DNA of 64,000 nucleotides from a virus: IMG/VR virus record IMGVR_UViG_3300038461_000042, positions 1 through 64,000 of that record; one strand, written 5' to 3'. Position 1 is the first letter of the stretch; each line of letters opens with the position of its first letter. Below the pieces are notes generated by a model. That model was not told where the DNA came from and made no database searches. It worked only from the letters and a program-made list of their open reading frames with translations. Below, one piece after another: positions 34,534 through 37,151 of the stretch. A program made the translations under genes and the position numbers.

Positions 34534-34539
34534 ATCCCC

Positions 34540-34597
34540 CGGTAAAGCGAGCGTCGGGCGGTAAAGCGAAAGCGTCGTCCGGTCAAGCAAGCGTCGG
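34540..34597. repeat. Three tandem repeats before the major capsid gene
   Basis: The unit CGGTAAAGCGARGCGTCGG occurs at 34540-34557, 34559-34577 and 34580-34597, with small changes in each copy and a period of about 20 bp. It lies in the 92-bp gap between the protease/scaffold and capsid genes. An RNA or DNA binding site is possible. Confidence 0.7.
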
Positions 34598-34625: not shown

Positions 34626-35807
34626 ATGCCTGAAATTGGCTTAGATGTAGCCACCGGACAACCGACCCCGGTGTCCGATGCAGTTGTACAGCGCGCTACC
34701 GACCCAATCTGGGGTACCGTTGCTACCCCAGGTGATTTCGCCGCGCAGTTCCCTACCCCCCTCGATCATACCGAAATTCTCGATATGTGCGAGGATATTT
34801 CCCTTTTCCAGAACATTCCCGAAATCCGCACCTCTCTGAAACAAGAGAACTGGCGTGAAATGACCACCCTGGCATTCGTGTCCGGGTCGAACTATATCGC
34901 CTTTGCTGATGGAGGTTGCCCGGAAGAGTATTCTCACGATGGTTCAAACCGCACCGTTGACCTCAAGAACATCGGCGCGAAGAAAAGCCTAACCATCTCG
35001 GACATCCTGCACTCTCTGGCTTCACAAGCGGCTGGATGGGGTATCACCGCTCTGATGGGCGGATATGCGGCTGGCGAAGGACTTCCTGGTGCCTCTGACG
35101 CAACAACCTTCACCCGCGCCGAAATCGCCGGATTGAAGGTCAAGGAAATCCGCCTGAGCATGGTGCTCGTGATGAACGCCTATGATAGGCTTTTAGCCGA
35201 AGGTAACGCCACCTCACGTCCGTTGGAGTTCGATGGTATCGAAGCCCTGGTAGTTCCCGCCAATGGCGCGCATACCAACACCGGTTCAAGTGTTTCCGGC
35301 ATGACGGTATCCGGTTCCTTCTCTGCCATCGGCTTCGACCGCTTCTGCTCCGAGACTTGCGCGAAGCCTACCCACGTTTTCGGTCATCCTCAAGCTATTC
35401 AAGAGATGCTGGCCGCTTACTTCCAGTTGGGCTTCCAAGGTTCACAGGTCATCTTTCAGAACGATGGGAATCGTCTCATCCCTGGCTTCAACTTCGCCGG
35501 GTTCGTGAATACCTCCATCGGTCGCCTGACCGTGGTTTCTGATGTGAACTTCGCTCGTACCGATATGGGCAACGGGGCTTTCGCCTCTACGCTGTACGCT
35601 CTCCGTATGCAGCATAACGGCCTACCGTTGGTATACCGGGCGACACAGATACCTCTCAGTCTCGTTGACCTGGTTCCGGGTTGCAGCTCGATTTCCTTCG
35701 AGGTATGGGAAAAGACCGCTTTGGTTGTAAAGCAGTATTGTGCCCAAAGTGCATACCGCTCTGTATTCGCGGGTCGCCAATTTAATGGTTGTACCCAGTT
35801 GGGCTAG
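34626..35807 (+). CDS. Major capsid protein
   Basis: The 393-residue protein follows the protease/scaffold gene and is preceded by an AAGGAG site. It has HK97-like capsid features: an N-terminal arm, then TLAFVSGSNYIAFADGG, a long helix-rich domain with a KVKEIRLSMVLVMNAYDRLL spine, and a beta-rich insert ending in FVNTSIGRLTVVSDVN. The C-terminal domain contains SISFEVWEKTALVV. There is no delta domain beyond the scaffold gene. The identity rests mainly on size, gene order and its strong ribosome-binding site; no other gene in the window fits the role. Confidence 0.8.
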   Translation: MPEIGLDVATGQPTPVSDAVVQRATDPIWGTVATPGDFAAQFPTPLDHTEILDMCEDISLFQNIPEIRTSLKQENWREMTTLAFVSGSNYIAFADGGCPEEYSHDGSNRTVDLKNIGAKKSLTISDILHSLASQAAGWGITALMGGYAAGEGLPGASDATTFTRAEIAGLKVKEIRLSMVLVMNAYDRLLAEGNATSRPLEFDGIEALVVPANGAHTNTGSSVSGMTVSGSFSAIGFDRFCSETCAKPTHVFGHPQAIQEMLAAYFQLGFQGSQVIFQNDGNRLIPGFNFAGFVNTSIGRLTVVSDVNFARTDMGNGAFASTLYALRMQHNGLPLVYRATQIPLSLVDLVPGCSSISFEVWEKTALVVKQYCAQSAYRSVFAGRQFNGCTQLG

Positions 35808-35810
35808 ACC

Positions 35811-35839
35811 TTGACGCCCAGTAAAAACCGATATATACT
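35811..35839 (+). promoter_or_regulatory. Promoter embedded in a ribosome-site hairpin
   Basis: TTGACG (35811-35816), a 17-bp spacer and TATACT (35834-35839) form a good sigma70 promoter just after the capsid stop. The -10 box overlaps the 5' arm of the next hairpin, and the expected start (about 35846) lies in its loop, so this transcript lacks that arm. Confidence 0.7.
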
Positions 35840-35863
35840 AGCCTCTGTCACAGGAGGCTAGTA
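35836..35863 (+). promoter_or_regulatory. Hairpin sequestering the homing endonuclease ribosome site
   Basis: TACTAGCCTC (35836-35845) pairs perfectly with GAGGCTAGTA (35854-35863) around an 8-nt loop. The ribosome-binding site AGGAGG (35852-35857) lies partly in the 3' arm, 11 nt before the ATG. In read-through RNA from the capsid operon, initiation would be blocked. The hairpin might also help terminate capsid transcripts. Confidence 0.7.
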
Positions 35864-35868
35864 TTATT

Positions 35869-36849
35869 ATGGGCAATGATAGACATGTTTTAGTAAGTGC
35901 AATTTGCCAGTATTGCCATAAACAGTTTATGGCTAGGAAAGAAAGAGTGGATAAGGGGCTGGGGAAATTTTGTAGTAAGGATTGTTATTACGCTTTTGAA
36001 AAAAAAGAGGGGAAAAACGTTCATGGAATAGAACATGCTCGGCCCCATTTTAGTAAATCAGAACATGCTTGGAAAATGTACTGGATTTCAGATGATGGCA
36101 AACAACATTCCAAGCCCTATGCGCGTTGGTTTTGGGAAACGCATTATGGGGAAATTCCAAAGGGATACAGGGCTTCTTATAAAGATCAGAATCGCCTAAA
36201 CCTATCGCCCGATAATATTATCTTGCTGTCCCCGGTGGAATTTGGGGAACGCCTGAGCAAAATAGAAAAAGGACATGTTTTCTCAGACGAAACACGTAAA
36301 AAAATGTCTTCCTCTGCCAAGATAAAACATTTCTCAGAAGAACATCGGAAACACATTGGCGAAGGAACAAAGCGTAGATGGGAAATGGGTGATTTTGATA
36401 AACCAGAGATTCGGGCTATCTATTCTGCTCAGGGAAAATCAACCAAAGGAAGTAAAAGAACAGAAGAACAAAAAACTGCTTTATCTAAAAAACTAAAAGG
36501 AAGAGTTTTTTCACAAGAGCATATTGACAATATGGTTAAATCTGCTAGGCGCGGAGATAAATGTAACTTTTGGAGCGGAGGACATCACGATTCTTACAAT
36601 AATCAATTCACTTATACCCTGAAACGAAAAATTCGTAGTAGGGACAATCATATTTGTCAGAGTTGCGGGGAGAATGTATATAGAAGTAAGCGCGGAAATG
36701 TACATCATATTAGTGGTAGTAAACAGGATTGTTCAGATGAAAATTTGATTTTATTATGTGCATCTTGCCACAGTGCGGTTCATGGAAGAAATAAACTTAC
36801 CTCACCAAAGATAGAAGAGTTAAAAGCAAGATTGCAAAAAATAAAGTAA
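35869..36849 (+). CDS. HNH homing endonuclease with NUMOD3 repeats
   Basis: The 326-residue protein has an N-terminal zinc motif (CQYCHKQF and CSKDCYYAF) and an HNH_3-like segment (RWFWETHYGEIPKGY). Four NUMOD3-like helices follow (FSDETRKKM, FSEEHRKHI, RTEEQKTAL and FSQEHIDNM), and then a C-terminal HNH core with CQSCGENV, NVHHISGS and LCASCHSAVHG. The modular layout is that of phage free-standing homing endonucleases. It is AT-rich compared with its neighbours and is inserted after the capsid gene, signs of mobility. Translation is controlled by the preceding hairpin and promoter. Confidence 0.88.
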   Translation: MGNDRHVLVSAICQYCHKQFMARKERVDKGLGKFCSKDCYYAFEKKEGKNVHGIEHARPHFSKSEHAWKMYWISDDGKQHSKPYARWFWETHYGEIPKGYRASYKDQNRLNLSPDNIILLSPVEFGERLSKIEKGHVFSDETRKKMSSSAKIKHFSEEHRKHIGEGTKRRWEMGDFDKPEIRAIYSAQGKSTKGSKRTEEQKTALSKKLKGRVFSQEHIDNMVKSARRGDKCNFWSGGHHDSYNNQFTYTLKRKIRSRDNHICQSCGENVYRSKRGNVHHISGSKQDCSDENLILLCASCHSAVHGRNKLTSPKIEELKARLQKIK

Positions 36850-36867
36850 CTTCCCCCTTCCAATTAT

Positions 36868-36902
36868 GTTCTCCTATCTTGTACAATTATGTACAGGAGA
36901 AC
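36868..36902 (+). promoter_or_regulatory. Second ribosome-site hairpin with internal -10 box
   Basis: GTTCTCC (36868-36874) pairs with GGAGAAC (36896-36902), and TGTAC (36880-36884) with GTACA (36891-36895). The ribosome-binding site AGGAG (36895-36899) is in the 3' arm, 9 nt before the ATG at 36909. A TACAAT box (36882-36887) in the hairpin would start RNA near 36894 and so remove the 5' arms; its -35 element (TTCCAA) is weak. Confidence 0.6.
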
Positions 36903-36908
36903 ATAAAT

Positions 36909-37151
36909 ATGAACGACAACGATACGCGTAATTTCTACCTCGCCGCCGCCTACATGACTTTAGGGGCTAAATATATTGAGATGACAATAGATGATGTGAA
37001 TAGTCCGGGGAGAAAGACGTTTCACTTCTCGGGGGAGATAGACTTCACACAAGTCAAGAAAGACTTCGCCAATTGTACGTTAATGATAAACGCATCTCGT
37101 TACGCGGACTGTATTCGTAATCTAAAGTCTATTTTACATGGAAGTGAATGA
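36909..37151 (+). CDS. DUF5659-like protein
   Basis: From the ATG at 36909 the product is 80 residues. The pattern FYLAAAYMTLGAKYIEM, a KTFHFSGEIDF strand and the C-terminal YADCIRNLKSILH helix resemble the DUF5659 family of small phage proteins of unknown function. The gene lies directly after the homing endonuclease and has its own hairpin-controlled start. It is probably an original phage gene whose upstream neighbour is the inserted endonuclease. Confidence 0.6.
   Translation: MNDNDTRNFYLAAAYMTLGAKYIEMTIDDVNSPGRKTFHFSGEIDFTQVKKDFANCTLMINASRYADCIRNLKSILHGSE

Follow-up and report, generated by a model that had tools for sequence, protein, structure and literature searches.

Does the translation of a homing-type endonuclease gene that sits behind a presumed capsid gene depend on where its RNA begins? 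The question is raised by an intergenic site in the 65.5-kb record of an uncultivated virus, the first 64,000 nucleotides of which make up the stretch analysed here (the window). At this site, a gene coding for 393 amino acids is followed by an HNH endonuclease gene, and the space between them holds both a promoter-like sequence and a hairpin.

Promoter and hairpin before the HNH gene

A preliminary description of the locus had reported a promoter of the form TTGACG, 17 bp, TATACT, and it is indeed present at 35811-35839 of the plus strand, with the -35 box at 35811-35816 and, after the 17-bp spacer, the -10 box at 35834-35839. Inverted-repeat and folding checks place the 5′ arm of a hairpin, ATACTAGCCTC, at 35835-35845, its apical loop, TGTCACAG, at 35846-35853, and its 3′ arm, GAGGCTAGTAT, at 35854-35864 on the same strand, ending four bases before the ATG at 35869. 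The stem is perfect, as had been claimed, with a length of 11 Watson-Crick pairs plus one G-U rather than 10 bp, and it encloses bases 2-6 of the -10 box, i.e. five of six, the first base lying outside. The Shine-Dalgarno sequence (SD) AGGAGG, at 35852-35857, falls mostly within the 3′ arm: its last four bases, GAGG, belong to the stem, the G before them forms the wobble pair, and the initial A remains in the loop. In the long RNA, folding adds a second helix of 5 bp (35816-35820 with 35870-35874), which covers part of the AUG. The promoter is sigma-70-like and is one of eleven strong intergenic promoters in the record; the T4 late-promoter box TATAAATA was absent from positions 35780-35868. 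A search of IMG/VR for the exact hairpin yielded no match, and an Rfam search returned nothing credible.

We consider it reasonably probable that this arrangement acts as a start-site-dependent translation switch on the HNH endonuclease gene. RNA reading through from the capsid gene would contain both arms, form the 11-bp hairpin and hide the SD of the HNH gene; RNA from the gene's own sigma-70-like promoter, with a start expected from the -10 spacing at about 35846-35847, in the apical loop, would be devoid of the 5′ arm and would leave the SD exposed. Since the own RNA alone would expose the SD, the endonuclease would be made only when its own promoter fires, whatever the level of capsid RNA. 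Because 27 nt separate the capsid stop codon from the 5′ arm downstream of it, a ribosome terminating at that codon should, judging from its footprint, leave the main stem intact. Promoter use, the start site, silencing, timing and the passage from terminator to switch considered below are what we infer from the sequence, and the I-TevI-like logic proposed in the preliminary description (long RNA silent, own RNA open) is backed by the predicted folds and by comparative evidence.

The HNH gene itself (35869-36849, plus strand) is intact and codes for 326 amino acids with HNH_3 and C-terminal HNH domains, its product matching PF13392 (9.7e-12) and PF01844 (1.3e-5), both above the curated cut-off. 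Single-sequence pattern searches for this protein in IMG/VR found none, and a phage collection yielded only a 32% partial match. The gene is free-standing, inserted between host genes and absent from the same site in relatives: in related phages L002, L004 and L006, a DUF5659 gene directly follows the capsid gene, with no HNH gene at the site. The site can be regarded as an insertion hotspot, because an unrelated HNH gene, of the HNH_5 type, also sits there in L003 (7229-8218, intact) and L020 (4180-4490, decayed). The sequence GTAACTTCCCCC, spanning 36848-36859 where the HNH gene ends, is found in L020 after its unrelated decayed HNH gene as well and, as judged by this recurrence, marks where the insertion site ends on the downstream side. 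The -35 box of the ancestral DUF5659 promoter (TTGCGT or TTGCCT) is missing in both the window and L020.

The proposed source of the read-through RNA is the 393-aa gene (34626-35807, plus strand), which is likely, though not proven, to be the major capsid gene, since its identification is carried by gene order and a weak PHROG match. It comes after the terminase and portal genes, and seven of its nine orthologues match phrog_212 (major head protein) weakly, with a best E of 2.8e-4. The “capsid operon” of the preliminary description gained no further support: a PDB profile search with the presumed capsid returned no head protein, its AlphaFold models were uninformative (pLDDT 28-30), and none of the relatives sought in bacterial genomes could be confirmed. 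Just 5′ of the SD of this gene, at 34539-34597, a GGTAAAGC..GCGTCGG element is repeated in two to three imperfect copies. The repeat is kept in close relatives, and L023, L024 and L026 have a single hairpin-like copy, GGTAAAGCC..GGC, instead; the repeat may be an element of the capsid leader RNA.

Stem statistics and a second hairpin on the DUF5659 gene

What the preliminary description called a good promoter has the hexamers and spacing claimed for it, but such matches occur at chance frequency, with 7 sites matching at least 9 of 12 positions versus 6.7 expected. Taken by itself, the promoter match is unremarkable, in contrast to the hairpin and its overlap with the promoter. At the HNH start, the long RNA folded with a z of -5.7, none of 200 shuffles being as stable, and the RNA beginning at 35847 gave a z of +1.6, with structure below that of its shuffles. 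The calculated cost of opening the region from SD to ATG was 17.4 kcal/mol in the long RNA, a value as high being seen in 1 of 200 shuffles, and 6.3 kcal/mol in the short one. In shuffles that kept the promoter hexamers and the SD in place, 4 of 200 reached the long-minus-short difference; over the set of cases so treated, the five strongest were equalled by 0 to 4 of 200 shuffles and the two weakest by 13 of 200.

We scanned 560 genes with a Shine-Dalgarno sequence in 11 records (the window record and ten relatives) for stems over the SD. A perfect stem of at least 9 bp was found in only two of them, the HNH gene (11 bp) and its DUF5659 neighbour (12 bp), and 20 shuffled gene sets contained 0.25 such stems per set, none of them reaching 11 bp. 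When the 134 genes with a promoter-like sequence upstream were ranked by long-minus-short cost, the top six places were taken by four DUF5659 orthologues, the window HNH gene and a GH25 endolysin gene (hypergeometric p ~2e-5 for the DUF5659 enrichment). Among 88 TTGAC promoters, five had the -10 box in a hairpin of at least 8 bp, although two of these represent a single in-gene site present in near-identical records; at random positions, an arm of this kind occurs in about 0.5%. These comparisons cover about ten records, in which the orthologues are partly non-independent, and are made with sequence and folding throughout.

The DUF5659 gene (36909-37151, plus strand; 80 aa; PF18903 at 25.9 bits, cut-off 23.6) is the second gene with a hairpin at its ribosome site. 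According to the inverted-repeat check, its 5′ arm, TTATGTTCTCCT (36864-36875), is paired over 12 bp with the 3′ arm, AGGAGAACATAA (36895-36906), which carries the AGGAG of the gene, and the loop contains a -10-like TACAAT (36882-36887), preceded over an 18-bp spacer by a poor -35 box, TTCCAA, with three of six bases matching; all of these are on the plus strand. By eye, the TACAAT aligns with the extended -10 sequences TGCTAGAAT of L002 and TGCTAAAAT of L004. Opening of the start was calculated to cost 15.8 kcal/mol in the long RNA, with none of 200 shuffles as high; RNA started at TACAAT would be without the 5′ arm, so that the cost would fall to 2.9 kcal/mol. In both the HNH and DUF5659 genes, the long RNA is strongly structured and the short RNA is unusually open.

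Orthologues of the DUF5659 gene differ in the form and strength of this hairpin. In L020/G006, the arms TCTCCTGC and GCAGGAGA surround a TATAAT. In L023/G007, where the protein is below the threshold of the Pfam DUF5659 model and was called an orthologue by position and eye, the arms are ATGATTGTAT and ATACAATCAT; the 5′ arm contains the -10 box, the loop the SD and the 3′ arm the start codon. A weaker hairpin, CTGCTA / TAGCAG, is found in L004/G003, and those of L002 and L004 are matched by 13 of 200 shuffles; the L024 orthologue has none. A strong hairpin is present in both readable phages bearing a homing endonuclease gene (HEG), i.e. the window and L020, and a weak one in the HEG-free L002 and L004, a correlation that is only suggestive, because L023 has the hairpin without a HEG. 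In the GH25 endolysin gene of L023/G007 (record coordinate 2957, minus strand), an 8-bp stem includes the -10 box, TATACT, in its 5′ arm, its loop contains the SD, and its 3′ arm ends at the start codon, a layout like that of T4 gene e control. The longer hairpin on the next gene, the presence of a hairpin at the capsid terminator position and the recurrence on other genes of the family were all absent from the preliminary description.

The post-capsid hairpin in related phages

In all relatives with readable sequence, the capsid stop is followed at a distance of some 20-50 nt by a hairpin. Terminator scores were positive in L002, L004, L023, L024 and L026 and negative in the window, L003 and L020, the best score being -7.0 in the window, +0.7 to +17.3 in the HEG-free relatives, +10.2 in L023 and +2.6 in L024. 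In L002, L004 and L006, an intrinsic terminator comes after the capsid gene, and the DUF5659 promoter and gene come next; in L002 and L004, the 5′ arm of this terminator has an ACTAGCC in common with that of the window hairpin. In L003 and L020, a long post-capsid hairpin without a U-tract precedes the different HNH gene. A hairpin in this position is thus general, and its terminator score is positive in the HEG-free phages as well as in L024. The window hairpin does not qualify as an intrinsic terminator, defined by a stem-loop, a U-tract and a positive score, and has the tail TTATTATGGG. It was probably derived from the capsid terminator by decay of the U-tract, the 3′ arm having taken over the SD, and with the U-tract degraded it would probably have been converted from stopping transcription to blocking translation. 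Loss of the capsid terminator would expose the DUF5659 gene to RNA at capsid level, from which its own hairpin would insulate it.

In L024, a divergent phage with a capsid 58% identical to that of the window phage, a homologue of the endonuclease (37% identity, E 9e-30) occupies the same site. This homologue is frameshifted near its end, before the C-terminal HNH motif (L024 5060-5150), which suggests a mobile gene undergoing decay. The L024 promoter, TTGACA-17-TAAAAT, is combined with the hairpin AAAATGAGTAG-TGTAAAAG-CTACTCATTTT in the same register as in the window: counted from the -35 box, the arms occupy positions 25-35 and 44-54, around a loop of 8. Registers were compared by a gap-free count, because MAFFT, when used to align the three post-capsid units, put the stems in the wrong place; by this count, 8 of the 11 stem pairs are changed on both sides, 3 are the same, and none is changed on one side only. 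This conserved geometry with changed letters is directly supported, as are the sequence, the folds and the statistics. The SD of L024 is located after the hairpin, and the tail is T-rich; since this hairpin leaves the SD free and looks like a terminator, hiding of the SD is not conserved for the endonuclease itself. L023 (64%) has a clear terminator and no endonuclease. In the window, L023 and L024, TTGAC is found at the same distance to the hairpin, the loop of which begins at position 36 from the -35 box.

A broader reading, which we put forward tentatively and regard as somewhat doubtful, is that of a family-wide module, in which a sigma-70 promoter starting at the loop of a hairpin made from its own -10 region would pass its own RNA and block read-through. 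Its outputs would be interchangeable, with termination in L023 and L024 and masking of the ribosome site or start codon in the window, the DUF5659 orthologues and the G007 endolysin. Such a module may turn the endonuclease off late, in the reverse of the T4 order, because a host-type promoter would give rise to the short RNA and the long RNA would originate in the capsid region.

Other explanations and known systems

The relatives also lend themselves to an explanation in which the window hairpin is still mainly a capsid transcription terminator, with an overlapping promoter for the next gene and only a secondary coincidence with the SD; a start placed at the loop would then mean that the own RNA cannot form the terminator. 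It draws on the presence of the hairpin in every readable relative, on its terminator scores in the five named above, on the promoter/hairpin register that L023 and L024 share with the window, and on the ACTAGCC found in L002 and L004. We nevertheless think it unlikely, given that the window has the tail TTATTATGGG and a negative best score, that the 3′ arm holds the SD and ends so close to the ATG, and that the DUF5659 hairpin is without a terminator tail as well. Less probable still is an action at the DNA level, with the inverted repeat serving as an operator over the -10 box and start site, at which the endonuclease itself or a repressor of phage or host origin would act against the promoter. 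An 11-bp inverted repeat over about -12 to +18 is a typical operator layout, and I-TevI autorepresses via an operator over its late promoter (PMC2988022). However, the 26-bp palindrome core is single-copy in the 65.5-kb record, its half-sites occur at chance frequency, and the sequence of the DUF5659 hairpin is unrelated; RNA pairing fits better than a conserved protein site, because the L024 homologue keeps the geometry and not the sequence.

That a promoter-like match and a stable stem overlap by chance, with expression coming from read-through RNA, for instance by translational coupling, seems to us highly improbable. The background frequency of promoter-like sites is in line with it, as are the equally costly start regions of some other genes in these records. 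Yet the stem length is unmatched in the 20 shuffled gene sets, stems of this kind occur on two adjoining genes, the register is kept in L024 with 8 double-sided changes, DUF5659 orthologues are enriched among the top-ranked genes, and a ribosome terminating at the capsid stop, 27 nt from the 5′ arm, should not open the stem.

The start-site-dependent switch, which we favour, follows a logic known from experiment in T4 and Aeh1, where it is established for I-TevI and has been described for I-TevII, I-TevIII, segB, mobE, e and soc (PMC2988022, PMC3014915). The review literature agrees with the preliminary description that I-TevI is controlled in this way, and it gives a like account of segB and mobE (PMC2988022, PMC3014915). 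The window shares with I-TevI, I-TevII and I-TevIII a hairpin that would hide the ribosome-binding site (RBS) in the long RNA, an own promoter yielding RNA without the 5′ part, and an endonuclease of the homing type (PMC2988022, PMC3014915); the RBS hairpin of the HNH gene is seen in sequence and predicted fold, and an own transcript without the 5′ arm is predicted from the sequence, with the -10 box in that arm and the expected start in the loop. I-TevI, however, is intron-encoded, belongs to the GIY-YIG type and has a T4 late promoter, whereas the window gene is free-standing, of the HNH type and preceded by a sigma-70-like promoter; moreover, the window phage shows no sign of T4 kinship, and its long RNA would come from the presumed capsid gene. 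The promoter of the HNH gene is neither a T4 late (TATAAATA) nor a middle promoter, and since it is sigma-70-like, the arrangement would work like the T4 switch but outside the T4 late-promoter set. The RNA made early in T4 is the silent one, and the late RNA is active; in the window phage the silent RNA would come from the structural region and the order may be reversed.

Closer in gene context are T4 segB and mobE of Aeromonas phage Aeh1, which are free-standing endonuclease genes (mobE being HNH) at an intergenic operon site, with an RBS hairpin and a nearby promoter (PMC2988022). They differ from the window gene in phage group, promoter type and insertion site, and the window hairpin apparently came from a capsid terminator. 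In T4 e (lysozyme) and soc, the long read-through RNA is silent and a promoter inside the 5′ strand gives a translated short RNA (PMC3014915); the G007 endolysin shares the layout of e, except that T4 uses the late promoter TATAAATA and the promoter here is sigma-70-like. In seg43(25) of Aeromonas phage 25, a very stable hairpin is located just upstream of the endonuclease RBS and leaves it free, as in L024 (PMC2988022), in contrast to the window, where the RBS lies inside the stem.

Compared with the T4 cases, the new elements are the sigma-70-like promoter outside the T4 group and the apparent extension to a host gene. If the switch operates as proposed, the T4 way of taming endonuclease genes would also be found in an unrelated phage group with host-type promoters, a terminator could become a translation switch once a selfish gene lands beside it, and adjoining host genes could share endonuclease-type control. 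More cases could then be found from sequence alone, by looking for a -10 box in the 5′ arm and a start at the loop.

The preliminary description held that this phage evolved the same solution independently, which is plausible in view of the lack of a T4-type late promoter and of any sign of a T4-like phage, but several HEG homologues elsewhere carry the classical version. A general comparison of HEG homologues of other phages with their neighbours gave only marginal significance for greater occlusion of the start (p 0.045). In the phage contigs L068, L070, L076, L079 and L082, TATAAATA is found near the start of the HEG homologue, and those of L065 and L071 have a strong stem over the RBS or start codon, which in L071 extends to 19 bp over the start codon when G-U pairs are allowed.
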